IMG/VR virus record: IMGVR_UViG_3300028844_007301 | Coordinates: 1 to 42,925 of that record | Strand: one strand, 5' to 3' | DNA from: a virus | Length of the DNA stretch: 42,925 nt | In this document: in pieces, positions 1-28,300 of the stretch | Position numbering within the stretch: position 1 is the stretch's first letter | Layout: every line of letters begins with the position of its first letter | The notes under the pieces: model-generated | Seen by the model: the letters and a program-made list of their open reading frames with translations, nothing else | Databases searched by the model: none | Told to the model about the DNA's origin: nothing | Translations under genes and position numbers: made by a program

Positions 1-240
1 AAGGATGAATTTATGGTCTGGAGTTGCTGTAATGATTTCTCCATTGTCCAGATGAACATCCAGCACTTCAGCATCATTTCCTGTAACACCTGCCCAAGAA
101 ATCAAACCAGGAACCACATGACCTTTTGAATCCACAGAGTAAGTCCAGTTTTCTTTTCCTGCTTTATGCTCGACAATCAATTGCCCAAGTTCAACATTCC
201 TACCATCTAATAAAGAAATTTTTGTCTTTAAATCAAAACA
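1..240 (-). other. Intein N-terminal splicing domain inside the portal gene (partial)
   Basis: From residue 305 of the portal frame the protein reads CFDLKTKISLLDG, the pattern of intein block A: catalytic Cys1 directly after the extein Gly304, then a beta-strand and a Gly turn. About 70 residues later comes GEIITATPDHKFIL, matching block B with its TxxH signature (T73, P74, D75, H76 counted from Cys1). The insertion falls directly after PRRNG, a strongly conserved portal motif, and inteins typically sit at conserved sites. Only 80 residues are visible. The endonuclease domain (if any), the C-terminal His-Asn and the first residue of the C-extein lie beyond the window, so whether it splices cannot be judged here. 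The reading frame is intact throughout. Confidence 0.85.
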
Positions 241-1152
241 GCCATTTCTCCGGGGCATCCAATAGTCTTCAAGCATTGTTTGGAATTTGCGATCATCTCG
301 CAACATTCCAGTTTTACTATCGTACACCATTTTGTTACGATATTGATCTTTAAGTGTCTGCAAATATTGTCTTGCTTTTGCAGCGGGTAAGTTTCCTACA
401 TCAACATAATTGTGAAGGTAGGAAATCACTGTGGTGCGTCTTTCATCTAAAAGACCACTGGTAGTATAGACAATTGATTCTGGTGCGATTTTAAGCACAT
501 TTCGTTGATCCGTATTTTGTGAATATGAATCTTGTGTGAATACACCACTTTCAGAATACATGTAGAATTCTTCAAAATCAAGATTCAATTGTATTTCTTG
601 TGGACCTACTGAAATCTTTTGATCTGCATCTGCACCTTTTCGTTGACGAACTTTTTTGATTTTGAATGGATCAATCAATCTTGCTTCAACGATACCACGT
701 TGTGGTTTTTCAACGTCAATCATCACATGAAAGAATAATCTTCCATCAACAAACCATCTACGAAAGATTTCATATCCTACATATTTAAAATTTAAAATAT
801 CAAGAACAGAATAAAACTCATCAGAAATTTTCTGACAAATCATTTCTGAATAATCTTCAAGATTGTCAAGGTCAATATGAACAGGATATGCTTTGCGGTT
901 TGCAACAATTGCTTCATTCACAATTTCATCCACGGCAAGTTCACATTCTGGTTGCATAATCATTGAACGATATCTTGCAAGCAGGTCAGATTCATTTTGA
1001 AAGTTAGTTTCAAGATTGAGATAAGTACCGTAAACACCAGCAGAACCTACAATGGTAGAGCCATCATCATTTTCTGCTGTGGTGAACGATTGTAAATTTT
1101 GTTCTGAACGGTCTTGGGATTCTTCAAACTTCCAGCCGAATAATGTAGACAT
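1..1152 (-). CDS. 20: Portal vertex protein (T4 gp20-like), N-terminal part, interrupted by an intein; cut by window edge
   Basis: The frame is open for 384 codons from ATG 1152 to base 1, with no stop in the window. A GAGGAG ribosome site lies just upstream of the ATG. Residues 1-304 look like the N-terminal half of T4-type portal proteins, with the segments LLARYRSMIMQPECELAVDE, YEIFRRWFVDGRLFFHVMID and MLEDYWMPRRNG. The family forms the dodecameric ring at the head vertex through which DNA is packaged and to which the neck binds. At residue 305 the sequence leaves the portal family and becomes an intein (listed separately). The gene follows terminase, sheath and tube on the same strand, which is the T4 order 17-18-19-20. 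It has its own late promoter and is separated from the tube gene by a terminator. The family call is firm. The C-terminal extein lies outside the window. Confidence 0.9.
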   Translation of the reverse strand, partial: MSTLFGWKFEESQDRSEQNLQSFTTAENDDGSTIVGSAGVYGTYLNLETNFQNESDLLARYRSMIMQPECELAVDEIVNEAIVANRKAYPVHIDLDNLEDYSEMICQKISDEFYSVLDILNFKYVGYEIFRRWFVDGRLFFHVMIDVEKPQRGIVEARLIDPFKIKKVRQRKGADADQKISVGPQEIQLNLDFEEFYMYSESGVFTQDSYSQNTDQRNVLKIAPESIVYTTSGLLDERRTTVISYLHNYVDVGNLPAAKARQYLQTLKDQYRNKMVYDSKTGMLRDDRKFQTMLEDYWMPRRNGCFDLKTKISLLDGRNVELGQLIVEHKAGKENWTYSVDSKGHVVPGLISWAGVTGNDAEVLDVHLDNGEIITATPDHKFIL

Positions 1153-1268: not shown

Positions 1269-1979
1269 TCAAGACTGTGGTTGTGTCCATTGTGTTTCAA
1301 AGCTCACACCCTCTACACCAGATGGCATATTACTTTCATTTTCAGTAAATGGATTTGCTGTTTGATTACCAGTTACACTCAATCCAGCAGGATTTTTCAC
1401 CCAATACTGATATGCAAATGTTACTGTGAATTCTTCAATGGTGTCTTTATCATCCCAACTTAATGTGATTTGATCTACTGAAGTTGGGAATGAGTCCTTG
1501 AAATAGTATGAAGCAAGATATGGACCACCGGGATTACCAGTAAGTGTTGAAATACCACCATCTTTTTGTAGTTGGTGTACTTGCATTTGACCATATACAT
1601 TGTCTCCAGCGGTTGAACCGAATCCTGATTGTGCTTCAAAGATTGATGCACCAGGTGAGATATATTCAATCCATGCTTCAAAGAAGTGACGGATCTTATA
1701 GTTCTCATCATTCAAGATCGTTACCGACCAAGGCGCAAAAGTTCGATCAATTGATGGTAACTTGACATCTCTTCCAAGAAACGTCTTTGTAATTTCACCC
1801 AATGTACTTTCAGGAATTGAAGATGCTTTGATAAAGAATGAAACATCTTGTGTATCAAATCCTAAATCAGATAGCGCAGCCTGAACATTAGTTGGAAAAT
1901 AAATTGTGGCAAAGAACAGAGATGGTCTTGCACCACCTCCGACTAGCCGATTTCGTAGTGCAGTGACATTAATTCCCAT
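1269..1979 (-). CDS. 19: Tail tube protein (T4 gp19-like)
   Basis: 236 residues. This is the major subunit of the inner tail tube, stacked as hexamer rings inside the sheath. The sequence carries family hallmarks: ARPSLFFATIYFP near the N-terminus, FIKASSIPESTLGEI around residues 49-63, the block DRTFAPWSVTILNDENYKIR around 79-98, and the C-terminal strand region TIEEFTVTFAYQYW. Length is somewhat above T4 gp19 (163 residues), with the extra sequence in the second half, as in many marine T4-like phages. A strong AAAGGAG site precedes the ATG, and the gene starts 19 bp after the sheath stop. It lies between sheath and portal as in T4. A second protein of apparently similar fold is encoded at 31456-32184. 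Confidence 0.9.
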   Translation of the reverse strand: MGINVTALRNRLVGGGARPSLFFATIYFPTNVQAALSDLGFDTQDVSFFIKASSIPESTLGEITKTFLGRDVKLPSIDRTFAPWSVTILNDENYKIRHFFEAWIEYISPGASIFEAQSGFGSTAGDNVYGQMQVHQLQKDGGISTLTGNPGGPYLASYYFKDSFPTSVDQITLSWDDKDTIEEFTVTFAYQYWVKNPAGLSVTGNQTANPFTENESNMPSGVEGVSFETQWTQPQS

Positions 1980-1998: not shown

Positions 1999-4446
1999 TT
2001 AATCTAAGCCAAGGTCTTTAAAATCAACCGTCTGTCCAACGGCTGTGAAATTCAACTTAATGAAGTTAATCACATAAGTTGGGCGAATGTAGATATCAGC
2101 TACAAATTTATTTTCTTCAATTAATTCATTTGTATTGTTTGTTTCATCACAAACAATTCTGTATTCACTACAACCTTGTTGTTGAACAATCTTCTCAAGA
2201 TAATTTTCAATTTGTCTTGTAAACTCAGCTCGAGTTGAAGGTGTGTTAAATTCAAACAACTTTCTTCTTGCTTGGAATACAACAAAATCTTTTACAGTAA
2301 TGAACAATCTTCTTACATTGATTCTGTCAAATGCACTTGCAACTTTGGTCATAGTCTTATCACCAAATAACAAAGTACCTTCACCACGAATTGTAATTAC
2401 TGGATTTACTTGATTTAGATATTGCTCATCTCTTGCCTCTTGTGATGGATTAAAAGACAGTTTCACAACATTTTTAATCTGTCCACGATTATATCCAGCT
2501 GGTGAATACCAAGGATAATAATTGATATCAGTTTGAGCCATCAAACCAGCAATGTCTCCAGACAGTGGAAGCCATCTGTATGTATCGTTGAAACTATCAT
2601 ACTGGTATTTAAAGTTACCATCCATGAAAGCATATGAACTATTATAAACACCGTCTCTCCAATTGACCATTCGATCTGTGATCAATTTTTCATCTGAGAA
2701 ACCACTTGCAATTTGCCCATAATCACCTGAGACACAAACAACACAATCTTTTCTTTCTTCTGCTATTTGAATCATCTTTGAAATTGCAATACGATAATCA
2801 ATGAAATGTCCTGGTACATATGTCCAACCAGTTACTAAGAAATCAACTTCAACATCTTCTTTTGATTTGAACAATTCAACCGCTCTGAGAATATCATCTT
2901 CTTGTGTAGGATTTCCACCGTCACCACCAGCAAATCTTTGTGCTGTATAATCACTGATATTCTTTGTTGTATGATAGGTGACAAAACGACCACCTGCAGT
3001 CATTTCACCCCAGTTGTTATCCATTTTACCATCAAGAGGATGTGCAGCCCACTTGACCCATTCGGATGTGTTATTTACTCGAGTAACATAATATGTAGGC
3101 GCTCCGAAATCATCTCTACCATCTCTAGCAACAGAGAGGCTTGCATATGATTCAAGAACTTGTCCAACATTTCCAGTAACCTCTCCACCATCATCAATTA
3201 CAGTCACATGAACTTCATCACAATAATGACCGTTCATGTTTTGATTGATTACTCTTGCATTGTTTGATGTTGCTGGTGCATTTGGATAAAGTTGTGCATA
3301 CTTCCATTCTCTTGACCAGAATGTTGGATTATTACTTTCAACTTTACCAACGATCGGACGATCAATACGAATCTCTGTATTGCTGATGATTTCAGAAACA
3401 ACAACTCGCTGGCCTGTGATGATTAGAATATCACCAAGTACTACTTGCTCACTGAATACAGTATTCTTACCATAAATTCGATCTGTATTATTGTCAAAGA
3501 AAACACGTCCCATCAAATTATTTGGAGAGTTTCTTCGAGCTCCATATGAAAATTCTTTGAACTTGCTTCTTTCACGAATTGTAATATCGGTGATAACTTC
3601 AGCAATTGTAAGTTCATGTACACCCATGTTATCAACAGTTGGAACATCTCCATATGCGTCACGATTAACGTATGCGATATGTCCAAGAGCAGGATCAAAT
3701 CCTGTAATTAAAAGATTGTAAGTACCTGCAGATGAACCGGCACAGGTAAAGCTTACAACTTTCTGCTCTGATTCAATTGCATAGTCTCCTATCCAAATAT
3801 TTGAACCAGAGCCAAATAGTGGATAGTGATTTGTTGAACCCATTGATGTATGCTGGAACTTAACATAGTATTTGTTACCAGCAATTTTCTGAAAATATAC
3901 CTCATTCAGCACTTCGGCACCAATGTCATTTACAGGCATTTTTTCTTCTGGTGAATCTGCGAAACACATATCAACTTTGATTGAGTTTCCAAGGTCACCG
4001 GGATATCTTGCAATCCATGCACCGTATTGTGTATCTTGTCCAAATTTGATTCCGGCATCTGATGGATCTTTAAGACCACCTTCTTTTAGAATAAGGCTTT
4101 CGGCATAATTGGCATCATTATAAATTAGCACTTGTTGTCCATATGTGTTATATCCAAAACAAGCATTTCTTGCGCTATCATTATCTACAACTCTTACAAC
4201 ATTAGCAGTTTTACCGTACTGCAAAAAGTTATATACATTAAACCATTCAACATAATTGTTATTCACTGGCTTTCCAAATTGCTTAATAAATTCATTTTCA
4301 CTTGTAATAAGAGTAGGAATCATGGATGGTCCCCAGTTAAATCGTCCAACTACTCCTGCAATGCTACTAAGCATAAGCTTTTCAGGACGAATGGATTTAT
4401 CAATCTCATTCGTGACGATTCCTGGAGATAGAGTAAAATCTGCCAT
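1999..4446 (-). CDS. 18: Contractile tail sheath protein (T4 gp18-like)
   Basis: 815 residues. This protein forms the contractile outer tube of the tail. The N-terminus (MADFTLSPGIVTNEID, then SSIAGVVGRFNWGPS and LQYGKTANVVRVVD) is the canonical sheath start. The C-terminal third (RINVRRLFITVKDFV, ENYLEKIVQQQGCSEYRIV, and a last strand ending YVINFIKLNFTAVGQTVDF) matches the conserved core that interlocks with neighbouring subunits. It is longer than T4 gp18 (659 residues). The extra length lies in the middle, roughly residues 150-420, where surface-exposed domains are inserted in this family. AAAGGA precedes the ATG. It sits between terminase and tube, as expected. Confidence 0.93.
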   Translation of the reverse strand: MADFTLSPGIVTNEIDKSIRPEKLMLSSIAGVVGRFNWGPSMIPTLITSENEFIKQFGKPVNNNYVEWFNVYNFLQYGKTANVVRVVDNDSARNACFGYNTYGQQVLIYNDANYAESLILKEGGLKDPSDAGIKFGQDTQYGAWIARYPGDLGNSIKVDMCFADSPEEKMPVNDIGAEVLNEVYFQKIAGNKYYVKFQHTSMGSTNHYPLFGSGSNIWIGDYAIESEQKVVSFTCAGSSAGTYNLLITGFDPALGHIAYVNRDAYGDVPTVDNMGVHELTIAEVITDITIRERSKFKEFSYGARRNSPNNLMGRVFFDNNTDRIYGKNTVFSEQVVLGDILIITGQRVVVSEIISNTEIRIDRPIVGKVESNNPTFWSREWKYAQLYPNAPATSNNARVINQNMNGHYCDEVHVTVIDDGGEVTGNVGQVLESYASLSVARDGRDDFGAPTYYVTRVNNTSEWVKWAAHPLDGKMDNNWGEMTAGGRFVTYHTTKNISDYTAQRFAGGDGGNPTQEDDILRAVELFKSKEDVEVDFLVTGWTYVPGHFIDYRIAISKMIQIAEERKDCVVCVSGDYGQIASGFSDEKLITDRMVNWRDGVYNSSYAFMDGNFKYQYDSFNDTYRWLPLSGDIAGLMAQTDINYYPWYSPAGYNRGQIKNVVKLSFNPSQEARDEQYLNQVNPVITIRGEGTLLFGDKTMTKVASAFDRINVRRLFITVKDFVVFQARRKLFEFNTPSTRAEFTRQIENYLEKIVQQQGCSEYRIVCDETNNTNELIEENKFVADIYIRPTYVINFIKLNFTAVGQTVDFKDLGLD

Positions 4447-4550: not shown

Positions 4551-6200
4551 TTAAAGACCTTCAAATAACCAGGCATTTTGTTTAAGAATTTCAATTCTTT
4601 CTTCTTCAAACGGATCTCGTTCTTCTTCTGGAACGTATTCTTCCACACCATCATCCAAAAATCCAAAAGGTAAATAATTTTCTTCATTTTCATTTTCTAC
4701 AATATTTGTCCGAATGTTCATATCATAAGTATCTTTGAAATATTGTTCATCAGACATCCAAGCAAAAAGAACTAAAGTCATTACACAATCATCATGTTTA
4801 CCATTCTCTGCTTTATATGAACCAGACCTTGCATCAACTGAGAATGTTAGAAATTCACCAATAGTATCAGAATCATTCACTAAAAGTTGTTCATTCTCAA
4901 GTAACATTTTTAAATTCGAACAGCCAATTCTTTTAATTCTTGGTGTTGTTGTTACACCATACTTCGCTCTTTTTTGAAATCCACTCGACAAGGTAGTTTT
5001 TAATTCTTTTTTTACAGTGGTGAACAAGTGATCATATTCTAAATCTTGAAGTAGAACATCTGTAATTTGTGAACCTATATTGTTTTCTTCAACGAGAACA
5101 TATGCTTTGTTGTATTGTAGTGCCGCATTGTGAATGATTCTTGCATAGATAATTGGTTGAATTGTATTGTCACGATAAACAGCAACAACTTTAAATGGCT
5201 TTGTTGAAACATCAATCACAGAGAAAACAGAATAGTCTTGTTCTCTACCCTTTGATACATCAGCAACAATTACATAATTGTGTTCTTCTTGAACTTCTTC
5301 ATAAATTTTAATGTCATCAAGAATTCGTGATGGCTTCATGATTGCCAACTCTTTCAATTTTGTTGATGAAATTAAAGTTGCTGTACTACCAAGAAACTGA
5401 CAACAATGTTCAACAAGAAACTTTTCTTCTCCAAACTGTGCAATTGTTTTTTTCTTCCATTCTTCATTACGATCTGGTCTTTGATACCACATGACTTTAT
5501 ATGGAATAAAGTCATTAACTTTAGCTTCTGCTTCCGTCCAAAACTTGTAGAAATGATTCAATCCTTTTGGTGTTGAAGTCATCACAACCTTCGAAGAAGT
5601 ACCAGAAGAGATAGTAGGATAGGTTGCAGACCAAAATGTTTCAAAGTTATCAACGAATGCGCACTCATCTACATACAATAGATTGATCGTTTCACCACGA
5701 ATACTGTCACCAGTCGAAGCTGAGACCATCACCATACAACCATTTTCAAGTTCAATTGAATTCACATTCCAAGACATCACTCCTTGTTGCATCCATAAAG
5801 GAATGTGTTCATATGCTTGTTTGATTAAACGTAAACTCTTTCGTGCAGTCTTTGTATAGTTTGCCAGAATTGCTACATTCTTTGAACTATTGAATAATAT
5901 ATAATGTAAAATATATCCACAAACAGTTGTAGTTTTTGAAATCTGGCGTGCAGATAATACAATTGTATTTCGATTATCATGTACTAAATTAATAATATCT
6001 TTTTGATAATCCCACAAGTCAATAATTTGTTTACCTTGGTCAATTGTAATGATATAAAAATAATTATTAAGAAAGTAAACAACATCATCTCGACACTTTA
6101 GATATTCTTCCACATGATTTCGTGTGAAAGGTATCTCTTGTCCAACACGTTTTAATTTAGGATTATTTTTATAATTAAGTACTGGTACTGGTGCAGACAT
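4551..6200 (-). CDS. 17: Terminase large subunit, packaging ATPase/nuclease (T4 gp17-like)
   Basis: 549 residues. This is the DNA-packaging motor that docks on the portal, translocates DNA and cuts concatemers. Visible motifs: a Q-motif-like DLWDYQKDII (61-70), a Walker A-like ARQISKTTT (84-92, K89), Walker B LLYVDE (174-179), and the coupling motif MTSTPKG (207-213). Nuclease acidic residues are D314 in IVADVSKG, E371/E372 in VLVEENNIG and D470/D471 in KHDDCVM. T4 gp17 is 610 residues, so the length is normal. The glycine usually found in the RQxGKTT P-loop is a serine here. The gene is divergent from the gp14-gp16 operon, so the two terminase subunits are transcribed in opposite directions. 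Confidence 0.95.
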   Translation of the reverse strand: MSAPVPVLNYKNNPKLKRVGQEIPFTRNHVEEYLKCRDDVVYFLNNYFYIITIDQGKQIIDLWDYQKDIINLVHDNRNTIVLSARQISKTTTVCGYILHYILFNSSKNVAILANYTKTARKSLRLIKQAYEHIPLWMQQGVMSWNVNSIELENGCMVMVSASTGDSIRGETINLLYVDECAFVDNFETFWSATYPTISSGTSSKVVMTSTPKGLNHFYKFWTEAEAKVNDFIPYKVMWYQRPDRNEEWKKKTIAQFGEEKFLVEHCCQFLGSTATLISSTKLKELAIMKPSRILDDIKIYEEVQEEHNYVIVADVSKGREQDYSVFSVIDVSTKPFKVVAVYRDNTIQPIIYARIIHNAALQYNKAYVLVEENNIGSQITDVLLQDLEYDHLFTTVKKELKTTLSSGFQKRAKYGVTTTPRIKRIGCSNLKMLLENEQLLVNDSDTIGEFLTFSVDARSGSYKAENGKHDDCVMTLVLFAWMSDEQYFKDTYDMNIRTNIVENENEENYLPFGFLDDGVEEYVPEEERDPFEEERIEILKQNAWLFEGL

Positions 6201-8081: not shown

Positions 8082-8543
8082 ATGAATTTATTTTTGAAAT
8101 GGTGGCTACTCATCACACTCACACTCACAGGTTTAGGTGTTGCAACCTATTTTAACTTTTTGAATTTCATGTATGTGCATGACTTTACAAAACTCTCTGT
8201 TGCAATTCTAAGTATATTCGCCGCCACCAGTGTTGTGATTGGATATAAATTATGGAAAAGTTCAGTTAAAGGAGACGAAAAATATACTTATGATCGGGAA
8301 TGGTTTGTGAGTGAAATGGTAATTACTTTAGGCATGATTGGAACTGTTATCGGATTTATTTACATGCTGTACTCAGTTTTTTCAAATTTAAATATCAACG
8401 ATACTTATGCCATTCAGGAAAGTTTAACACAAATGGCAAGCGGTATGGGTACAGCATTGCTTACAACATTGGTTGGGTTAGTAAGTAGTGTTCTTATTAA
8501 AAGTCAACTGGTAATGGTGGAATCATATGTTAAAGTACAGTAG
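8082..8543 (+). CDS. ExbB/TolQ/MotA-like ion-channel subunit (phage-encoded)
   Basis: 153 residues with four predicted membrane helices (about 8-30, 36-57, 76-100, 122-140) and short connecting loops. The last two helices carry the signature of the MotA/TolQ/ExbB proton channel family: GMIGTVIGFIYML (84-96, family pattern GLLGTVxGMI) and MASGMGTALLTTLVGLVSS (118-136, family pattern IAxGIxxALLTTxxGL), including the paired Thr128-Thr129 and the small residues that line the ion path. It is far shorter than ExbB (about 240) or MotA (about 290), with most of the cytoplasmic region missing. A perfect AAAGGAG precedes the ATG. The next gene, an ExbD/MotB-like partner, starts 17 bp inside its end. 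Function in the phage is unknown. Family membership is my inference from motifs and gene pairing. Confidence 0.72.
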   Translation: MNLFLKWWLLITLTLTGLGVATYFNFLNFMYVHDFTKLSVAILSIFAATSVVIGYKLWKSSVKGDEKYTYDREWFVSEMVITLGMIGTVIGFIYMLYSVFSNLNINDTYAIQESLTQMASGMGTALLTTLVGLVSSVLIKSQLVMVESYVKVQ

Positions 8544-10305: not shown

Positions 10306-13300
10306 ATGGCCGACACCATTTCTAAAATACTCATTAAAAGTTCTTTAGTAACTGATACTCCCTCCGCAAGTGACCTTGAACGAGCAGAACTAGCTTATTC
10401 ATACTCATCAAATCGTCTATTCATTGGACATCCAGATGGCAATCAATCACCAATGGTGATTGGTGGTACAAAATTCCTTGAACTATTTGAAACTATTCTT
10501 GATGATGATGGCACAATCAACTCTGGTCAAGTATTATCAAACAGAGTAATTGTTGCTGGTGAAGATCGTGATCTTGATTTTCTGGATATTGGTGTATTAA
10601 AAGTTGCTGGTAGAGAACTCGCCACAAGATTTATTGATAAAGTAACCACATCAAATGCATTTAGTGATGTTAGCCATACACAATTGGCAACAGCACAAGC
10701 AACAAAAGAATATGTCGATCAAAGAACAGAAAGATTTTTACTTAACTTTGACGAAGAATCGATACAAGAAGCACAAATTCTAATTGCTGATGCGAACAAT
10801 CGTTTTGAAAATCGAACGATTACTGGTGATGTTATTCTAAGTTCTGATGGTTTTACAAAAATTCGTGATGGTATCATTAAGAATGAAATGCTCAAGAATG
10901 CATCGATTCTTGTTGGTACTCAAGAAGTTAAACTTGGTGGTAGAATTATCATCAACATGAATGAAGATACCTCTGGTATTCTTCGTGTACATCGTGGTGG
11001 TATTGGTCGGTCACACCTCGAGAAACATCAAGTTGTTTTAGGTAATGAACTTGAAGCAGTACAAACATCAAGCAATTTTATATTTGATACAATTGAAAAT
11101 AAGTTGTACATCAATGAAAGAGCAGAGATCACTCGACATCTTTCAATTGGCGAATCTCTTGAAGTTGCAGATAGTTTCTTTGCTACTGCAGATTCAATTC
11201 GTTTTCACGATTATTTTAAAGTTGATCATACAGATAAATCTGTCAACATCGATGCTGATAATTTATCTATTGATGCCGATATTGATCTCACAAGTAATTT
11301 AATTGTTGCGCATACAAACACATTTGATTTGTTTGCGAAATCAACAAATCTTTATGGTGATTCTCTTTACATCTCGGCAAATACTGTTACTGTCAGTAAA
11401 GCACATACAACATTTGACGGTGAAGTTATTGTTAATGGTAAGAGTACGGTCAATGGTGATACAATTGTCAATGGTAAATCAACAATCAACGGCGATAGTA
11501 CAATCAATGGTGATGTACAAGTTAACAGTGATAATGTAAATATCTCCTCTTCAACAGTTACTGTAGTTGATGGTGTAGTTACATTTAACAATGATGTTGA
11601 TTATAATGGTGATACAATCACTGTATCAAGTGGAACAGTTACAACTGTCTATGGTGATGTTGATATTCAAAATCAATTAATATCATTCAATACTTTACAG
11701 TATGAAGTTGATGGTACAAGAATTGATTTTAATAGTATTGACTTTGAAATCTCAAACGGTACCCATACAACGATTCAAGGTGATAGTACAATCAATGGTA
11801 AAACGAATTTTACTGGTGATATTCTTATTGAATCGAATAATGTTGAATATAGTCTTGGTACACTCACAAAATTTGTTGGTCCAGCAATCTTCAATAATGA
11901 TATTTCTATCGTCAATGATCTAATATCGATCGATGCAAATGAATTTGAGGTCTCATCGAATACAAGATCAGTGTTCAATGGTATAACGATCTTTAATAAT
12001 GTTTCTCAACTGAATGGTGAGTTGTTTGAAATCAGTCCATTCACAGAAACAATCTACAAAGGTACTGTTGAATTTCAAAACCTAACAACTTTCAATGCAG
12101 ACTCAACATTCAATGAAGGTATCTATGTCAATAGCAATTTATACCTATCTGCAGATACAAATCTAAGTAGTGATGCAACTTCACAGTTCCGTGGTGAGAC
12201 AACTTTTGACAATAAGGTTTCCATCAATGATGAGCTTACAGTCACAGCGCCTTCAGTTTTCAACAACATTGTTGAAATCAATGATGCAACCACAATCAAT
12301 GCACCAACGGTTATCAATGACATAACAACAATCAATGATGCGACCACCATCAATGCACCACTTCGTGTAAATGATAATGTCAGCATTCGTGAATCACTCA
12401 CCATTGAGAAAGATTTGATTGTTGAACGTGACCTATTCGTTCAAGGAAACACCGTCCAGATTGACGTACAAACGATGGTTGTTGAAGATAACATCATCGT
12501 AGTTGGAAAGAACAATGAAGCCGATGCTGTTGATTTGGGATTTGCTGCAAAGTACAAGTATGAAGGTGTTGATGCATATGCTGGTATTTTCCGTGATGCC
12601 GCAGATAAGAAATTCCATCTCTTTCGAAAATATGATGCCGAACCTGGTATCACAATGGGCAACTATGAACTTGCCACTTTAGTTGGTGACTTTGAAGCAA
12701 ATCAGGTATTGATTGAATCTGGAACGATCAGTGATGTAACAATGCATCGTCCAGAAATCCACAAGGCAACATTGATTGATGCCAAGTTAGAAGGTACAGT
12801 CATTCATAATTTGTCAGCAACTGCGGCATCAATTGATCATTCAACCGCTAATGATGTTTACATCAAGAACAGTGTTCTTCAATATTCTGATGTAAAACAT
12901 TCAGAGTTAGATACCATCACATCAGTAAACTTTACAGGTACAGATACCTATTTGACTGATGGCTGGGTGAAGAACTTTGACATCTATGATTCAAGAGCAA
13001 ACAATTTCACTGCCACCAATGTTTACATAACAACTGGTACAATTGATGATTTTGATGTTGATGATATTCGTGTTACCAATTTTGATTTAAAGCATGGTGA
13101 TATTTTCAATGTTGATATTGATAATGTAAGAGCAAACAATCTCACCGCAACAAACGTATATCTGTTTGATGGTACTCAGTACAACTTTGAAATTGAGAAA
13201 ACCATTTCAAAGAACTTTACCGGTACTGATACATTTTTGACAAAAGGTACAATTGAAGATTTCGAACTTACAGATATTCGTGTCCAGGATTTCGATCTCA

Positions 13301-16300
13301 AGAATGGTAAAATTTGGAATGTTGAAATTGAAAAGATTTCATCCGCAAATGATGTCACAGTCACCAACTTTGATTTAAAGCATGGTGATATTCAAGATGT
13401 TGATGTTGAAGATATGCGAGCCAATAATGTTGTATCAACAAATACACATTCAACATTTGGTCATATTGAAACATTTACTGCCAATAATATCACAACAACC
13501 AACTTTGATTCGAGACAGGGATATCTACAGGATATTGATGTTGAGGATATGAGAGCAAATGATGTTGTTGCAACAAACTTGAATCTGGATCATGTTGTAG
13601 CAAACGATGTGACCACAACAAACTTTGATTCAAGACATGGCTATCTTCAGGATATTGATGTTGTTGATATGCGGGCGGAAGAGGTCAAGGCAAAGTTTGT
13701 CGAATTAGATCAAGTCACTGCAAATGGCGTGACAACCACCAACTACAAATCATATCACGGTTATCTTGAAGACACCGATGTTGAAGATATGAGAGCAAAT
13801 GGTGTTGTTGCTACGAATTTAGATTTAGACCATGTTGTAGCCAATGATGTAACAACAACCAATTTTGATTCAAGACATGGCTATCTACAGGATATTGATG
13901 TTGAGGATATTCGTGCAAACAATGTAGTTTCGACAAATGTACATTCAACCTTTGGACATTTAGAAACATATACACAAAACAACATTACAACAACCAACTT
14001 TGATTCGAGACAGGGATATCTACAGGATATTGATGTTGAGGATATGAGAGCCAACAATGTTGTTAGCACAAACACACACTCAACATTTGGTCATTTAGAA
14101 GATTTCACTGCAAACAATATCACAATCACAAACTTCAAACTTCAATATGGTACAATTGAAGATTATTCAATTGAAGATGTCCGTGCAAACAATGTTAATA
14201 CGACAAACTTTGTAACAGCACATGGTGATTTGACTGATATTGATGTTGAGGATATGAGAGCCAATGCTGTGATTTCAACAAATGTTCATTCAACCTTTGG
14301 ACATCTTGAAACATACACTGCCAATAATATCACAACTACCAACTACAAATCATATTATGGTTATCTTGAAAATACTGATGTTGAAGATATGCGGGCCAAC
14401 AATGTTGTATCAACGAATACACATTCAACCTTTGGGCATTTAGAAACATTCACTGCAAATGGTATCACAACTACCAACTACAAATCATATCATGGTTATC
14501 TCGAAGATACAGATGCAATTGATCTAAGAGCAACAAACGTAGCACTCGACACTGGTACAATTACAAACTTTGATGCTACTCATATTCGAGTAACAAATGA
14601 TCTTAAAGCAACAAACGTAACACTTGATACTGGTACCTTAACTAACTTTGACATTTATAATTCAAGAGTTTATGAAACACAAATTGTTGACCGTTCAACA
14701 GCAAACAATTTAGAATCAAACAATGCAACTTTAACTTTTGCTGAAATCTACGATACAAGATCAGAAAGACTATGGTCAAACAATGCTACTCTTGAAAATG
14801 CAGTCATTAAAAGAGCAGAAATTGAAAACATTGAAGGTATCAATTATAGCCTAACTGCTGGTGATATCACAAATTTCGAAATTTATGATTCAAGAGCAAA
14901 CAATTTCACTGCAACAAATGTATACTTGACCACTGGTACATTTGATGACTTTACAATGCGTGATTCAAGAACAGAAAGAATCACTGCAAATGCAACAACT
15001 GGTACCAACTTTGATCTAACAACTGGTACAATTGATAACTTCTTAGTCAAGAATAGTACATTTGAAGCAATTGTCGCAAACAATGTAAATGGTACAAACT
15101 ATGTTCTTGATACTGTAATTGCAGATAAAGTATTCTTGAACACAGGAACAATTGACCTTTTTGACATTGTTGATTCAAGAACATATAATATCACTGCAAA
15201 CAATACAACTGGTGAATACTTCTTCTTAACACATGGTACACTGGAAGACTTTACGATTGAAAAGTCTCGAATGAACAACAGTGTTGCCAACAATATGGAA
15301 ATCAATGATTCGACAATCAACAATGCAACATTGTGGAATGCGAATCTTGCAGGTATCACAATCACCGGTGCGGTTACAACACAATCAAAGTTTGATGATT
15401 CAACAGCAAACAATGTAGTTATCAACCAAAGTACATTACAAAATAGTTATATTAAAGATACTAACTTTGATCGTGTTGAAGGATATGATCTAACAGCAAC
15501 GAATGTATTCTTGTATGATGGTACACTTGAAAACTTTGATATTGAAGCATCAAGAGCCAACAATTTAACTGCTACAAATGTATATCTAACAACTGGTACA
15601 ATTACTGATTTTGATGTTGATGATATAAGAGTTGAAGCATCAACTGCAAACAATCTAACAGCAACCAATGTATATCTAACAACTGGCACAATTACTGATT
15701 TTGATGTTGATGATATAAGAGTTGAAAAGGCTGAAGCAAATAATGTTACGGCGACCAATGTATATTTAATGACCGGTACAATTGAAGATTTTGATGCTGA
15801 GAATATACGAGCAAATAATGTTACTGCAACAAATGTATTCTTAACAACTGGCACAATTGACCAGTTTACAGGAACACATCTTCATATTACAGATGATTTC
15901 AAAGCAACAAACGTTGTATTAGATACTGGTACATTAACCAACTTTGATATCTACAACTCTCGAGTTTATGATACACAAATTGTTGAAGAATCTTCTGCAA
16001 ATAACTTAGTATCAAATAACGCTACGTTAACATATGCAGAAATCTTTGACACAAGATCAGAAAGATTGTGGTCAAATAATGCTACACTTGAGAACGCAAT
16101 AATCAAACGTGCTGAAATTGAGAACATTGAAGGTAAGAATTATAGCTTAACAGATGGTGATTTAACCAATTTTGACATTTATGATTCAAGAGCCAATAAC
16201 CTCACCGCTACTAACGTCTATCTTGAAACTGGTACGATTGAAGATTTTGATGTTACGAATATTCGTGTTGAAGCATCAACTGCAAATAACTTAACAGCAA

Positions 16301-19300
16301 CCAATGTATATCTAACAACTGGTACAATTGAAGATTTTGATGTTACAAATATTCGTGTTGAAGCATCAACTGCAAACAACTTAACAGCAACGAATGTATA
16401 TCTTGAAACTGGTACGATTGACAATTTCACAGGTACACATCTTCATATCACAGATGATTTGCAGGCAACCAATGTCACAATGGACACTGGTTCAATGGTC
16501 AACTTTGATATTGAAGCATCAAGAGCCAACAATCTAACCGCAACAAATGTATTCTTAACTGATGGTACGATTGATAACTTTGACCTTGAGGCATCAAGAG
16601 CCAACAATCTAACCGCTACTAACGTCTATCTTGAAACTGGTACAATTGATAACTTTGACCTTGAGGCATCAAGAGCCAATAACTTCACCGCTACTAACGT
16701 CTATCTTGAAACTGGTACAATTGACAATTTCAAAGGTACTCATCTTCACATCACAAATGATCTTAAAGCGACAAATGTTACGCTTGATACTGGTACAATT
16801 ACCAACTTTGACATTTATAATTCAAGAGTTTATGATACGCAAATTGTTGAAGAGTCCAGCGCAAATAACTTAGTATCAAATAATGCGACCTTAAACTATG
16901 CAACATCTGAATATCTCACATCAAACAATGCAACAATCACAAATGCAAAAATTAAGAATGCAGAGATTGAAAACATTGAAGGTATCAATTACGATCTTAA
17001 AGCTGGTGATATTGATGACTTTGATATTGAGAATTCAAGAATTGCAAACTCAACATTAAATCTTGTCACTGGTACAAATGTTGATTTAGATGGTGGTTTA
17101 ATTGAGAACTATGAAATCAATGATAGCTTTGGTAATAATGTTACGCTTAATTTCTCAACATTAAATGATGCACAACTGAATAGACCAACTCTTGATCATG
17201 CAACACTGACCGGCGTAACAATTGCTGGAGCGGTTGCAACAGAATCAAAGTTTGATAATTCAACCGCAAACACTGTAGTTATTAATGATAGTGAAATTTA
17301 TACTACATTAATTGAAAACTCAAATGTTGAAAACATCACTGGTAATAATGTATACTTAACCGGCGGTACTCTTGATAACTTTAAGATTTATCGTTCAACA
17401 ATCTATGATTCACAGATTGTTCAGAATTCAGAAGCAGAATATCTAACATCAAACAATGCACAATTAAATGATGCCACTATTCTCAATGCAACTGCTGAGA
17501 ATCTAACATCAAACAATGCAACAATCACTTATGCACAAGCGCATTATCTAACATCAAATAATGCCACTTTACATCGAGCTGATATTTTTGATACTGAAGG
17601 TATAAGAGTTGATTTAACAACAGGTACAATTGATGATTATGATATCATTGATTCACGAATGGACCGAATGCAGGCAAACAATGTTGCCTTGAACAAAGGT
17701 TCCATGGCTGACTATGATATTGATGGTTCAAGATTGCGACAAGTCACAGGTAATAATGTAGATTTGACAATTGGTACAATTGATGATTATACTATTAAGC
17801 AATCAAACATTGAAGATACTAGCGGTGTACGAGTTAATCTAACAACTGGTATAATTGATCAGTATACCATTAAAGATTCTGATTTAAACAATGTTAATGG
17901 TACAAGTGTAGATTTAACAACTGGTACAATTGATGATTATACTATTCAAAATTCAGACCTTGATACTATTAATGGTGTAAGAGTTGACCTTACTACTGGT
18001 AAGATTGAACATTATGCAATTGCCAATTCAAATTTAAATCTTGTTACCGGTACAAATGTTGATTTAACTTCTGGTGAAATTAAGACATATCACATTGAAG
18101 GATCAACTGCAAACAATCTCACTGCTACGAATGTATATCTTCAGACTGGTACAGCAGATGATATTGATATTACCAACTCAACTCTTGATAGTGTTGAGGG
18201 TACAAGAGTTGATCTAACAACAGGTAAGATTGAACAATATGCAATTGCTAATACAAGCCTGAATCTTGTCACTGGTACAAATGTTGATTTAACTTCTGGT
18301 GAAATCAAAACATATCACATTGAAGGATCAACCGCAAATAACTTAACAGCAACCAATGTATATCTAACAACTGGTACACTTGATACGTTTGATGGTGTAC
18401 GAGTTGATTTGACCACTGGTGAGATTGAACAATATGCAATTGCTAATTCAAGTCTCAATCTTGTCACTGGTACAAATGTTAATTTAACAACTGGTATTAT
18501 TGATGATTATACAATCAAGCAATCAGATATTGAAGACATTGATGGTGTAAGAGTTGATTTAACAACTGGTACAATTACAACATATCATGTTGAAGGTTCG
18601 ACAGCAAATAATCTAACAGCAACCAATGTATATCTAACAACTGGTACTGCTGGTGATTTCACTGTTAGTTCTTCAAAGATTGTTGACACAACAGTTGACG
18701 GAACATTTGTTCCTGCTGATGATAGTGTAGACCTTGGTGCAAATGCCTCACGATTCCAAGATGCATACATTTCAAATGAGTTGAATCTTGGTCTTGCTGT
18801 AATGCGAATCAATGAAGATGGTCATATTGATTTTGTCAATCAAGCTGGTGAGAATGTAAGACTTGCTGACTATGCGATGAAAGAAGATGCTGCTACAGCA
18901 GTTGTTACAGAAACAGCCATTGTTGGTAGCACTTTCTCGGGTAATGTTGTTGCAAACACCATCACAGTTCATGCCGGATCTATTGCGAATGTTGAAATTC
19001 GAAATGCAGACATTTATGGTTCAAGAGTATATGAAACACAATTGATCAATGAGATTACTGCAAATAATGTATTCTCTGATAATGCAGAAATTGAAGATGC
19101 TTTAGTCACTCGAGCAACCATTCTTAATGCAACAGCAAATAACTTAACTTCGAATAATGCAACAATCAGAAATGCAGATATTACAGATGCAACGGCATTA
19201 CGCTTTACCGCAAATAGTTCATCGTTTGGTCAAGTTGAAATCTGGGATTCAAAGATTTATACATCTCAGATTATCGAATCACAAATCATTCAAGAATCAA

Positions 19301-22300
19301 CTGCTGATCAATTAACATCAAATTATGCTACCATTAATGATGCGACAATTGATAAAGCAACTATTACTGATGCCACAGCAGAAAGATTAACTTCCAATAA
19401 CGCTACCTTAAATGATGTTACTATTGAAGAAGGCACTGCAACTGATTTGTTGCTCAACAATGCAACACTTGAAGCCGCAACTGCAAATAATCTAGTCCTC
19501 ACTGGTCCCACAACAATTAGTGGTCATTTATTACCAACTGCAAATGGTGTGTATGATTTAGGTTCTATTGAGAATCCATTCAGACATATGTTCTTGTCTG
19601 GCAGCACACTCTATGTTGGCGGTGTACCAATTACAATGGGTGGTGACGGCTTTAAGTTTGGTGCTGACCTTGCTGATTATTCAAAGTCAAGCGAACAAGC
19701 AGCACATATTCAAACTGAAACCGCACAGATTAATACATTAACTGCAAATACAGGTACGGTCACAATTCTCAGTGGTGAAACATTAACCTATACAGGACTT
19801 AGCACACTCACTGAAATTGATTCAGAAACTGCAGAAATTACTGACTTAACAGTTGGACAAATTGAAGGTAATTATGCCAATGTTGATACCTTAGTTGTTA
19901 CTACAGATACAACTTTAGATGGTACTACAACAATTGGTAATGCTGATATTCAAATTGGTGATGTTGATACACTGACTGCAAGAAAACTAACTGTTACTGA
20001 AGATGCAACAGTTGCCAATTCCGTCACAATTGACGGCTTCACCATGTGGAAAGATGGTGAAGGTCATTTGAAGTTAAGTAACCGTCTTGCTGATTACTAC
20101 CTCAAGACAGATGATACAACCGGTGAACTTGTACGGACAAATCGACTTATTGCTAACAATGCCTTTATTGATGTTCTTGATGCAAATACTGGTTCAGTTG
20201 ATGAACTTGATTCAGTTGATTTAAAGGTAGCTAATTCAATCACATTGAATAACTTTGGAATGGCAATCGATGAAAATGGCCATCTGAAGTTTACACATCG
20301 TCTAGCAGATTATTATCTCAAGACTGATGATACTAGTGGTGAGAAAGTTACTACAAATAATCTGTTTGCACAGAACACATTCGTTAACTTTATTGATGCC
20401 AATACTGCTGAGATTGATGAGCTTGAAGTAGTTAATATTCATGCAACAAATGATGTATCTGCTGCCAATTCCGTTTCAGTTAACGGCTTCACAATGTGGA
20501 GAGATGGTGATGGTTATTTGAAGTTAAGTGATCGTTTAGCAGACTACTATTTGAAAACTGATGATACAACCGGTGAACTTGTACGGACAAATCGACTTAT
20601 TGCTAACAATGCCTTTATTGATGTCATTGATGCAAACAGTGGTACAATTGATGTATTAACAGTTGAAAACATCACAGTCAAAGATGGTACAATTGATGAT
20701 GTGACCTTTAACAATGTCAATGTTAATGGTGGTACAGTTGAATTTATAAACCTGAAGAATTCAACTTTAGTTGATGTTGAAGGTAATCTAAATGAACCAG
20801 ACATTGCTGATCCTGTAATTACTGGTGGTACTTGGACTGATGCAACAACAACGAATACAACACTTGACGGACAGATTGTATTTAATGCTCCATTACTTGC
20901 TGGTACAGATATTGACTTAGGTACAAATACTCAGCGATTCCGTGACCTATATCTTGCAAATGCAATCTCTGTACAAAACGCAACACATGGTGCGTATATC
21001 AGCCTTGATGCAAATGGTCATATCAAGTTCAATGTAAGACTGGCAGATTATTATCTCAAAACAGATGATACCAGTTCAGAGAAAGTTGAGAGTACACTAG
21101 GTATCTTTGAAACTGCAAATGCAGATACAGTTAATGCAACCACAGTCAATGTTGATGACCTATTTGCTGATGAAGCAGATGTCAATATTCTTGCTGCAAC
21201 AAATGCAATTATCACAAGTGGAACAATTACAACACTTGGTACAACTGATATTACCTCAACAGATATCAAAACAAATGATATTCTTGTTACTAATGGTGTC
21301 TTTGTTGGTGGTGAAACAAAAGCCGACTCCGCACTAATTACAGTTGATGAGAATGGACATATTAAGTTCAATGTTCGATTGGCAGATTATTATCTCAAGA
21401 CAGATGATACGAGTGGTGAAAAGGTCACTACTTCAAATCTGTATGCTGGTAATACATTCACTGATGTCATTGATGCAAACACTGGTACAATTGATCAATT
21501 GGAAGGTACAGACCTTGATTATGATAATGCAGTTATTGATACTGCAAACGTCACAAGATCAACGATTACCACTTTACATTCAACTACTGGTACAATTACT
21601 AATATTGATGGTACTACTGCTGACTATACTCAAGGTAAGTTTGGTTCACTTGATGTTACTGGTATCGCAGACATCAATACTATTCAGGCAACTGATGGAA
21701 CAATCACAACTGTCAATGGTACAACAGCAAACTATCTGAATGTAAATGCTACTGAAGAATTGTTTGCAGCAAACGCAACCATTCTTGCTGGTGGTATTTC
21801 AAATGTTCGAATTGACAATGCAGACATTTATAATTCACGAATCTATGAAACTCAAATTACAACAAACTCAACTGCTGAGAATTTAGTTTCAAATACTGCC
21901 ACACTACATGATGCCACTGCATACAACTTAACAAGTGAAAATGCAACCATTAATAATGCTGTAACAAACAACCTGACTTCAAATAATGCAACTCTTGAGA
22001 ATGCAACCATTAAGAAGTCGGTGATTGAAAATTCAGAAATTCGTGTATCAAAGATTATTGAATCAGAGATTGTACAAGAATCAACTGCTGATCAATTAAC
22101 ATCAAATTATGCAACCATTAATGATGCGACAATTGAACGTGCAACAATCAATGATACAACTGCTAATCGAATTACTTCAAACAATGCCACACTCAATGTT
22201 GTTACAATTAAAGGTGGTACAACTGACGGATTACAAAGCACAAATGAAACTCTGACTGATGTCAAAACAATCAATCTAACAACAGAAGGTACGTTTGTTC

Positions 22301-25300
22301 CATCTGTTGATGATACACAAGATATTGGTTCAACTACAGAAAGATATCATGATGCTTATCTATCAAATGAGTTGAACATTGATGGCGTGCGAATGCGAAT
22401 TGTCAGTGGCGAAATTGACTTTGTTGATACTGATGGCAATAATGTAAAACTTGCAGACTATAACATGGCATCTGAAACTGGTGCAACCATCACCAGTAAC
22501 GAAGCAAACTTGAACTTGATTGTTAACAATGAACTAACCGCAAACATTGCTGATGTTGTAGTGCTTGAAGCAGAAGATGCTACCATTGATGAACTCATGA
22601 TTACGACACAATTCACCTCGCCAGAGAATCAATTAGTTAATGCAACAGTCACTGGTACAGCAACAATCAATGATGAAGTTGTTACCACTTCTACTGTAGG
22701 TACTGCAGACATCACAACACTGACGGCAACGAATGTTACCATCACAACTGAAACAGTTGGTACATCAAACATCACAACCGCACAAGTTGATCAACTTGAT
22801 GCAAACACTGCCGTTCTGATTGACCTTGAAGGTACAACTGGTCGCTATGATACTTTCACTGCTGGTGTATTGACGGCAACAACTGCAACAGTCACCGATA
22901 GTTTCACATCATCATTGAATACAACACTTCTTGGTGACACAACAATTGCAGATGCAACAATCACTGAAGAAACTGTCACAACATCAACAATCACCGATGC
23001 AACAGTTACCAACACCTTAACTGTAAATCGTTCATTTACTGCCACAGCAAATGTTACGGATCTATTTGTTGAAAATAATATCGAAGCGCCAAGCGGAGCA
23101 ATTAAAACTCTTGGTGTTCAAAATGGACAAATTGATAATCTAACAGCAACAAACGTTCAATTTGCAAGAAAGATTAGTCTTGAAACTGTCGACATTTCAT
23201 TGAACAATGATAATCAAATTGTCTTCAGCGCAAATGTTGACCATCTGAATGTTACCAATTTAACAACAACTGATGAGCTAACAGTTCATAACACTCTTGT
23301 TGCTTCAGACATCGCAGAGTTTGTAGGTCAAACAACAATGAATGATGTTGCAATCAATGGAACATTCACTGCAAATACGATTGATGTTACGACTTCAGCA
23401 TTGCTTGAGAACGCAACTGTTACGGATACACTGACTGCAATGAATACTGTCCGGTTTGGACAAGCAATTTCATTGAACTCTGCAATCATGTCAGTTGATG
23501 CAAATGGTGAAATCAAGTTTAATGTTCCTCTTGCAGATTATGCAAAAGAACATGGTGAAGGATTCCATGCTGGAGATTTGGAAGGTGATGTCTTCCGTGC
23601 AAACACTGCAACAATTGTTGATGCAGAAATTGAGAATCTAACAACAAACAACACAACGCTGAACTTTGCAACTATCAACGGTGGCGTCATCACAGGATCA
23701 GTCCTGAATGGTGTAACACTTGCTGGTGGTGCTGGTATGATTGATGGCTTTGAGTATTTCAATTCTGTGATGGCAAACACTGTCGCATCGAATACTCATA
23801 TGACAGAAGGTACCATCGATGATTTCGAAATGACGAATTCATTGATTCTTGATTCAACAATGAATGATTCTTCTGCGAACAATCTAACAATCACTTATAG
23901 TGAACTCAAAGAATCACTGCTTGAAAATGTAAGAATCACAGGACATTTAATTCCAACTGCAAATGTCACTTATGATTTAGGTACACCAGATTTGAGATTT
24001 AGAGATTTATATCTCAGTGGATCAACAATCAACATTGGTAGTGCTGCAATCTCAATGAATGAAGAAGAGGGTACACTTGAAACAGACAAGTTCCGTGTTG
24101 AAGATCAAGTTGCAAACAGTTCAACATTAAATTACCTTGACAGTTATCAGGCAACAATCAATCAATTAACTGTCAACAACTTCGTCACCAATGATTCAAC
24201 AACATTGAACATTGCACAAATCAACAAGCTGCAAAGTACATCTGTTGATTTGACTGAAGTACAAGTCAATGAGCTTGATGCAAACACTGCACGATTGATT
24301 GATGCAAACATTGGTACAGCACAAGTTAATGCTCTGAACGCAAACACTGTTGACTTACTTGACGGTACAATTCGAAGCATTGAAATATATGATTCTTATT
24401 CTGACAACTTGCTGGCAGAAAATAGTACACTTGAAAGAGGTACTATTGAAGATATGACCATCGGTAATACAACTGTCAAGTTCATCACAGGTACAGATGT
24501 TGACTTGACAAGAGGTACGATTGATGATTATACAATCAAGAATTCTCAGATACAGGATACAACTGCAACTAATCTTGATATTTCTGGCAGTGAATTTACA
24601 AATGTTGAAATCTACGATGGTTATTCAAACAATCTAACCGCAGAGAATTCAACATTAGTTACTGGTTCAATTCATCGTTTTAATATCACTGATACAACTG
24701 CACAAAGAATCACTGGTACAGATTTCAATCTAACAAATGGTTCTCTTGACAACTTTGATATTCGAAACTCAAGAGTTTACGATACACAAATTGTTGAAGA
24801 AACAAGTGCAAACTATTTGGTATCAAACAATGCCACATTGCATGTTGCCACAATTCATGATAGCACAACATACAATGCTGTCATACACAATGCCGAGGCA
24901 TATAATTTAACATCAAATAATGCCACATTGAATCAAGCAACAATTCTTGATTCAACAATTCGAAATGCACAGATTTATAATTCAACAATTCATGAATCTC
25001 AAATTGTTAGTGAATCACATGCTGATGAATTAACATCAAATAATGCCACATTGCATGTTGCCACAATCTATGATAGTACAACTCATCGAGCTACAATTCA
25101 TGATGCACATGCAAACAACTTGACTTCTGATCATGCAACATTAGAAGATGCTTCACTCGCCAACTCATTCATCACAACTTCAACCTTAGATGGTGTAATT
25201 CTCAAGAATTCATCAATGCAAGGAATGTCTGTTGATTGGGTAACCATTGGACATGCATCAATTGATGATTCATGGGCAAACACAATGGAGATCCGTGAGA

Positions 25301-28300
25301 GTTTCTTTGAGAACAATGATTTTGAAGATTCAAGAACAGCCAATTCAACAATCAAACTTTCAACAATCAATGATTCAGTAGTCAATGATTCGGATGCACA
25401 TCGCTTGAAAGTTTATGACAGTGACCTATTTGATATTCGTGTGACAAATGGTACATTTACAATTGTCAATACAGAAGATTTAACTGCAAATGATGTGACA
25501 TTGACAAACGGTACTTTAGATCGTTTCACAACAACCAATGTTGATTTAACAACTGGTACAATTGATGATTATAATATCATCAATTCAAGAATCTATGATA
25601 CACATGCAAATAATTTAATCGTTGATGTAACAACAATTAAAGATGCAACAATCACTGATGCTAATATTGCTACTGCGGATGTTGATACACTTTATGTTGA
25701 TACAACATTTGGTCAAATTGGAACAATTCTGAATCTAACATCGAATTTTGTTTCAACAACTGATGCATTAATTACGAGTGCAGATATTACTGGAGCAAAT
25801 GTTAATACTGCAAATATTGATTTTGCAACTGTTGATTATGCAAACATTATTGATACAGATATTACAGAAGCTGAAGTTGAACTACTTACTGTAAATAATG
25901 CATTCATTACAACAGGTAGCTCAACCTGGCATGATATTGTGAACTTAGATGCACTCAATGGAACAATAAGAGATTTAACAGTCAATCAAACGGCGACAAT
26001 TACAAAAGAAATTGTTACCGAATCAGATATCAATACTGGTAAAATTGTTAATGCCACATTGACAACTGCGGATATTGGTGATGCAGAAATTGCCAATACT
26101 GAAATTGGTTATGCAAATGTTGGTAAATTAGTTGTTGCTCAAACAGAAATGCAAGATGTTGTTGCTGAAACACTTACCGCAAATCGTCTTGACATTAATG
26201 TTTCATCTTATTTGAAGCAAGCAGAAATTAATACATTGACCTCAACAACAATGTCTGCTTCAAATAAAGTTTTGGCACCTACAATTAAAGCAACTTTACT
26301 TGCCGATCTATTTGAAGCAGAGATTGAAAAAGAAACTGTTACCGAATCCTGGATTACAACGGCACATATTACAACTGGTTATGTTGATGATTTACATTTT
26401 ACATCCGCAAGTCCAGATGTCCTTACAGCAAATACAATTCATGTAAAAGATCTGGCAAGTGCAAATGCAGTTCTATCAACTGCTACAATCACCAACTCAG
26501 GATTTAGTGATGGCTTGATTCAGAACACCGAAATTCGTTTCTCTGATTTCAAGTATGGTGAAATTGTTGATTCAAATATCACAGGTGGCACAGCAAACGG
26601 ACTCAATCTTACCACATCTGTTCTGGATGATATCACTGTTCTTTCTGGTAATATTTTCAATGTTGTCATTGATGGTGCAATCATTAAGGAAGCAGTATTT
26701 GATGGAGGTATGGGACAAATTCGCAACTATGAGATCTATGATTCATATGCGAATTCATTTGTCATGGATGATTCAATTCTCAACCGACCAATTCTGAATG
26801 CTCCTGTCATCAATGGTGCGCAACTTCAAGGTGCCTTCGGTAGATTTGTTGATTTCGAATTCTGGGAATCAAAAGCAAACAATCTATTCCTGCGTGATTC
26901 AACAGTCAATACATCATTGATTGAAGATTCAACCGCAGAGAATTTGACAATTGCAAACAGTACAATCACATCGACTTCAACGATCAATGGTGCATCACTG
27001 AACGATGTGTTAATTGAGAAAGCTACCGCAAATGATGTTCAGCTTTCTAATGCTACAATTTCTGATTCAACGTTTGAAGATATTGTTCTGAATAATGTAA
27101 GAATTACCGGTTTTTTAATTAATGATGCTGTGACATCAAGTGGCGGTGAATTGTCTAGTGGTGACGGTTCTGCCAACTCTGGCAACGCAGGATTCTTAGA
27201 TGGTGAATACTTTGGTGAGGGTGGACTTCTGCTTGGAATTCGCTTGCATGATGCGACCGCAAATGACCTAATAGTCAACACCGGTACGATGCATGATGTG
27301 TTGATGCAGAATTCAACCATTCGTGATTCTGTTGCAAACAATATGACCTTCAACTCTGGTACATTGTATGATTTTGACATCTACAATTCCAGAATTCATG
27401 AGACACAAATTGTTCAAGATTCAACTGCTGAAAACTTGATTTCAAACAATGCAATCTTGAAGAATGCAACTGCCGAAAGTTTGACCAGTGCAAATGCAAC
27501 CATCACCACTGCAACGATCACAAATGCAATTGCGACCAATCTACAATCAACGAATGCAACAATCAGTTCAGCAACCATTCTGAATTCAACTGCAAACAAT
27601 CTGTCATCTGCAAACGCAACATTGACAGATGCCGATATTGTAGATTCTGCAGCAAACAATTTATTTGTTGAAAATTCAACAATCATGTTGTCAACACTTG
27701 ATACTGTTCAAATTAATGGTTCAAGTGCAAACAATTTAACTGTCAACAATTCATTCATTACAAACACTTCAATTGTTGATAGTACTGCTGAAAGATTGAA
27801 TAGCAACAATAGTGTAGTTGCTAATTCGACAATTACGAATTCATCACTTGAACAAGTAGCAATCACGAATTCAGACTTTACTGGAAACATTCTGACTGGA
27901 TCACAAATCAATGGCACTACAATCATTGGTGGTTCGGCACAAGGTGTTGCAATTTCTGGATCAACTGCTACGAATCTAAGTGCAGCACAATCAATTCTTA
28001 CGAATTCACAGATTCGAAATTCAACTGCAAATAATCTGACATCAAATGATGGTACATTCAATCGTCCATTTGTTGATTCAGCCACAGTTGAAAATGCAAC
28101 CGTTGCGAATTCAACATTCACAAACATCACGATTACAGATAGTAATCTTGGTACACTATCACTTGAAGGTTCAACTGCCAATGATTTGTCAGTCACTTTA
28201 TCTTCAATTGAAACAAGTGCTATTGCCAATTCAACAATTACAAATACATCTCTTGAGCAAGTTGTTGCTGCAAATTCAGAATTTAAATTAACTACAATTC

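Follow-up and report, generated by a model that had tools for sequence, protein, structure and literature searches.

The window, by which we mean the whole 42,925-bp stretch of viral DNA analyzed here, ends with high probability inside a mobile, HNH-bearing intein of class-1 type, as judged from its sequence and that of its relatives. Its insertion keeps the reading frame of the portal gene of a T4-like phage known from sequence only; the site corresponds to G341^K342 of T4 gp20, within the inner clip loop. Many further uncultured phages have close relatives of the intein in this gene, at the identical site or at adjacent ones. Head building in these phages probably depends on protein splicing, which we regard as a sound inference. 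As far as the literature searched goes, an intein in a T4-type gp20 and a portal-confined clade of inteins over neighbouring sites are new.

Intein and Portal Gene of the Window

The portal ORF of the window (1152..1, minus strand) comprises 384 aa and runs open off base 1, the contig end. Its first 304 codons as assembled (241..1152) form the N-extein of a T4-type portal protein (gp20): the frame matched the Pfam profile PF07230 (Portal_T4) with 230.8 bits, and the N-extein is identical to that of the intein-free locus L003 at 303/304 aa and 905/912 nt. The PRRNG motif, residues 300–304, occupies the final 15 bases of the N-extein (241..255), and Cys305 stands directly after it. The following 80 residues (portal residues 305–384; 1..240) are the N-terminus of the intein, cut by the contig end. 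Block A, CFDLKTKISLLDG (202..240), starts with Cys1, which is portal Cys305, while block B reads ATPDHKF, and its core TPDH (13..24) is invariant in a 14-row intein alignment. Cys305 after PRRNG, block A and the TPDH block B, the features on which the preliminary description based its proposal of an intein, were thus confirmed in the frame of the portal ORF.

Against PF14890 (Intein_splicing), the stub gave E 7e-5 and 23.1 bits, which is under the cutoff of 35.8, as expected for a fragment. It agrees with each of four complete inteins at 77/80 residues. The match of the stub to the intein pattern is not due to chance, and we have little doubt that the intein in the T4-type portal gene of the window is real. 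Because the 42,925-bp IMG/VR record stops there, the window contains neither the C-extein nor the C-terminal half of the intein; everything downstream of intein residue 80 is read from another contig, L019.

The portal of the window has a further peculiarity at the junction 409..410 (minus strand), where alignment with relatives revealed that 87 bp are missing (29 codons, approximately T4 gp20 residues 256–284), and where the PF07230 match is split at profile positions 181/210. The 29 residues absent from the portal as assembled are conserved and span most of the first stem stretch. No further viral_contigs record contains the junction, and the L019 contig starts exactly at its right edge. The gap is probably an assembly misjoin; it is possible that it marks a defective genome. 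The idea that another mobile element had left the gap behind as a scar was dropped, since the frame is otherwise continuous, the junction is confined to this record and the relatives have ordinary portal sequence there.

Complete Copies in Related Contigs

A scan with the 384-aa frame yielded 37 related portal loci. Among them, the 60-kb contig L019 aligns to the window frame from residue 249 and reads on past the edge of the window. In its 429-aa intein, two Hint halves and an HNH-type part are present, and the final Asn is followed by Ser+1; after the intein end, YHDYHNFALSSGIFVMN, come SATTEID and the remainder of a portal C-extein of 244 aa. The preliminary description had expected a C-terminal splicing domain, a homing endonuclease and the portal C-extein beyond base 1; a C-terminal splicing domain, an HNH-type part and the portal C-extein were located in the frame of this neighbour contig. 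It had also expected blocks F/G with His-Asn before Ser, Thr or Cys; the blocks, Asn and Ser+1 were found in L019, but Met-Asn replaces His-Asn.

L010, L011 and L012 contain the same whole intein, and L020 and L021 have it with 52% identity. The complete copies finish VMN|S, after which the portal resumes, and the frame is open through every complete copy listed. At site 341, terminal Asn and Ser+1 are kept in 15/15 complete copies, and the penultimate residue is Met, without the usual His, in all 15. Cys1 was present in 91/91 complete inteins tabulated, for which the site callers had sought C or S.

The complete L019 copy scored 41.6 bits against PF14890, over the cutoff. In the case of the HNH_3 profile, the score was over the cutoff in L020 (36.4 bits) and just under the cutoff of 24.8 in L019 (23.6 bits); the HNH motif VIHHID..RFNN.P.NL...EH is kept and lies outside the window itself. 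AF2 modelling of the intein gave no usable structure with 7 sequences (pLDDT 39.8) but did so with 14 more diverse ones (mean pLDDT 73). Foldseek with the latter returned DnaE inteins (1zd7, 4kl5) as the best PDB matches (E 2.9e-6), while the intein profile gave weak DnaE matches alone among PDB sequences (best E 2e-4). By its Cys1, block B TPDH, terminal Asn and Ser+1, the insert appears to be a class-1-type intein, for which splicing is predicted.

Mobility and Selection

The empty alleles of the site are exact, with PRRNG|SATTEID read without gap in ten loci (L003–L007, L013–L016 and L018). Among the 37 portal loci, 7 carry an intein at this site, 28 are empty and two contigs (L008 and L009) break off directly ahead of it. 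Exteins that are 99% identical occur with the intein present or absent, while exteins that are only 62–72% identical carry inteins of 92–96% identity, and this contrast indicates that the intein moves horizontally. For instance, L019 and L010 share 71.7% aa identity in the C-extein (45.9% at fourfold sites) versus 92.5% in the intein (70.5% at fourfold sites). Five of the seven nucleotide differences between the N-exteins of the window and L003 fall in the 15 bases adjoining the intein (241..255), and their clustering suggests that this short altered flank arose by short co-conversion. On the other side of the intein, the C-extein of L019 is identical to that of L003 at 244/244 aa, with 5 nt differences, three of which fall in the initial codon (AGT to TCC). 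The patchy occupancy, the divergence of extein and intein and the short altered flank back the earlier reading of the insert as a homing element; they show its transfer between portal lineages to be horizontal.

In three pairs of complete inteins, dN/dS was 0.05–0.09; the two Hint halves gave values of ~0.05 or less and the endonuclease part 0.06–0.09, and the codon comparison shows purifying selection on both the splicing and the endonuclease parts. These ratios speak against the reading that the intein no longer splices and that the locus is a decaying insertion, as might be gathered from the penultimate Met of all complete copies at site 341 and from the 87 bp missing in the portal of the window. 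We consider such decay very unlikely, since the frames are open through the complete copies listed, the C-exteins are intact, the 87-bp junction recurs in no other viral_contigs record, and inteins with other penultimate residues do splice, e.g., the RDF intein with Gly (PMC5050341, in its accessible part). According to the same part of that source, the penultimate His is usual but not obligatory in class 1 inteins, and His at this position slowed the RDF intein, which natively has Gly and splices.

It is highly unlikely, too, that the intein of the window is an assembly chimera, that is, the intein of another virus joined onto an intein-free portal. Assemblies do break in this region: the window contig stops within the intein, those of L008 and L009 stop a little short of it, and the L019 contig begins at the 87-bp junction. 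Nevertheless, the extein allele of the window is linked to an intein in L019 too, independently and with another intein allele, and the L019 C-extein equals that of L003 throughout. The window is identical to L019 over 143 N-extein bases, from the start of L019 to 25 bases before the intein; 31/408 bases differ between the two, 28 of them in the 240 intein bases and three in the last 25 before the intein. The window intein is 9–12% of bases away from those of L019, L010 and L011, which are therefore not its source. A single extein background thus carries two different intein alleles, which points to repeated entry or replacement.

Site in the Portal and Proposed Mechanism

Alignment to 6uzc/3ja7 places the insertion at G341^K342 of T4 gp20, in the inner clip loop. 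According to the accessible text of Sun et al. 2015 (PMC4493910), the clip of T4 gp20 (279–358) docks gp17, the stem consists of residues 255–278 and 359–377, R338 and K342 of the inner clip loop face the DNA channel, and Ala mutants of these two residues lose packaging. As the site lies between the positions of these channel-lining residues, packaging should wait for splicing.

In the most likely course, the portal would be made first as a precursor of ~1,000 aa. Cys1 would attack the Gly-Cys bond and the chain would then be handed to Ser+1; the terminal Asn would cyclise, and the exteins would ligate to PRRNG-SATTEID, the sequence of the empty alleles. Twelve inserts of 429 aa would be too big for the clip at the mouth of the DNA channel, the docking place of the packaging motor, so splicing would have to come before any functional portal ring. 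Portal genes that lack the intein are probably cut by its HNH part during mixed infections, with repair then spreading the intein. Although a Met next to the terminal Asn, where His is usual, could alter the C-terminal step, it is extremely unlikely that the Hint domain serves cleavage and not ligation, with the portal working as two pieces, as the joined extein sequence equals the empty allele and Ser+1, superfluous for cleavage without ligation, is kept along with Asn in every complete copy at site 341. The predicted dependence of packaging on splicing is directly testable. The portal ring is the structure that starts head assembly and gates DNA.

Wider Family of Inteins in T4-Type Portals

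Relatives of the intein were collected in two scans of IMG/VR. The best 80 of 428 in the first scan (A3) all lie in T4-type portal frames (80/80, 74 resolved by script and 6 by eye). The best 80 of 464 in the second scan (A5), which was run from the most diverged members, comprise 19 loci already in the first list and 61 new ones, again all in portal frames (61/61). Together, 141/141 relatives examined (best 80 of 428 and best 80 of 464) are in T4-type portals. Whether the use of a single query intein had created the portal hotspot was addressed by this second scan with diverged queries, in which 61/61 new loci among the best 80 of 464 were again portals; the finding is limited to the best 80 relatives of each scan. 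A search of genome contigs gave one relative, in a Thermotogae MAG, at 29%. The unusual part is a clade which, among those examined, is confined to the portal gene and spread over neighbouring sites.

The site table contains 96 inteins in 87 contigs, 91 of them complete, and as many contigs are near-copies the counts are not independent. In T4 gp20 numbering, the sites are 328 (56 inteins), 341 (18, with the window), 353 (10), 339 (3) and others with 1–2 each. In the complete copies, the terminal Asn is preceded by Met at site 341 (15/15), by Lys at site 328 (53/55) and by mixed residues at site 353. After leaving out five partial inteins, including that of the window, and four at sites −1, −2, 256 and 276, 87 inteins remained, 67 of them distinct; the tree of these 67 requires 8 changes of site, compared with a minimum of 7 and a shuffled mean of 25.6. 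The second tree was hand-chosen and holds 48 portal inteins at 316–354, an intein of LR756508 and five non-portal inteins; the CL2, GXN1 and Thermotogae inteins were kept out as their ends were not found or unsure. The 48 portal inteins form one group (SH-aLRT 92, not starred), and the related LR756508 intein falls outside it, a placement that long branches make unsure. Both trees were built by a quick method without bootstrap.

In 177 portal frames, the site caller, which misses some, found inteins in 135 (one in 111, two in 22 and three in 2). It took double inserts as one in L052, L108 and L117 among the loci of the first scan and in L151, L152 and L153 among the 177 frames. L052, L108, L117, L153 and the six loci unresolved by script were read by eye, and start residues near site 151 are unsure. 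The portal frame of L153 (L153:404-6154) has 1,917 codons and four inteins, two apparently of LAGLIDADG type by eye. The portal of L020 (L020:5995-9555) has two inteins, one of 200 aa at 328^329 and the other of 433 aa at 341^342; on the same contig, a terminase frame (L020:1041-2849) contains further intein domains.

It is conceivable, though unlikely, that one family in T4-type portals moved among neighbouring points (gp20 316–354) and that the fixed, site-specific non-His residue before Asn (Met at 341, Lys at 328) tunes splicing so as to time the formation of the portal ring or the onset of packaging, which would make splicing a control step of head assembly and not just the toleration of a parasite. 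Portal genes with up to four inteins and one clade over neighbouring sites offer a natural system for studying site shifts of homing elements and the tolerance of structural genes. In metagenomes, the portal genes of phages like these may go undetected or be truncated.

Relation to Known Inteins

The DnaE inteins (1zd7, 4kl5) have the Hint fold of the splicing domain in common with the present intein, while their host gene is other than the portal; to our knowledge, they have no HNH part. The top match in a named cultured phage was the SP15_022 intein of Bacillus phage SP-15 (KT624200), 30.9% over residues 1–178. Like the intein here it has an HNH-like part (by eye), but it ends VHN|C with His kept, its flanks look terminase-like (by eye), and it falls outside the portal clade in the hand-chosen tree. 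The huge phage LR756508.1 (L057:527-4687; record unannotated) has a T4-type portal with three inteins, one of them related (37.9%), at other sites than here and outside the clip-segment clade.

Inteins of this kind are already known. According to the accessible text of Kelley et al. 2016 (PMC5050341), mycobacteriophage inteins also occupy a phage portal gene (PORT) and are transferred between phages, and the penultimate His is inconsistently kept in their class 1 members too; PORT is listed there under POG1190 in cluster C1 phages, whereas the portal here is of the T4-type PF07230. The 24 records matching the intein (tblastn, E 1e-3) included no Mycobacterium phage, and the PORT inteins are compared by description. 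The TerL inteins of T4-like phages (Maynard, PMC3868846; vB_CcoM-IBB_35, PMC3322345), as described in the accessible parts of these papers, are in a DNA packaging gene as well, but in the terminase and not the portal. No intein in a T4-type portal was found in the literature searched, i.e., the accessible parts of PMC5050341, PMC3556154, PMC7886860, PMC3868846, PMC3322345, PMC10448857, PMC4493910 and PMC7765530, subscription papers being mostly outside its scope.

Other Genes of the Window

The T4 gene order 17-18-19-20 is found on the minus strand with the portal last. The terminase large subunit gene, gp17-like and without intein (4551..6200), was recognized by PF03237/PF17289, and the gp18-like tail sheath gene (1999..4446) is similar to annotated phage sheath genes. 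The gp19-like tail tube gene (1269..1979), which had no Pfam match, was assigned by its position in this order only.

On the plus strand, one uninterrupted frame (10306–30246; 6,646 aa) consists of degenerate repeats such as ANNLTATNVYLTTGTI and possibly encodes a giant fibre-like protein. A MotA/TolQ/ExbB-type proton channel protein (8082–8543, plus strand; PF01618, 34.0 bits) is encoded near the structural genes, and the two genes after it begin with a hydrophobic stretch (by eye). The minus strand encodes a PnrA/BMP-type substrate-binding protein with a signal-peptide-like start (37272–38324; PF02608, 215.8 bits), which is unusual for a phage, as well as a NADAR domain protein (41490–41906; PF08719, 90.8 bits) and a GDSL-like hydrolase (36418–37059; PF13472).
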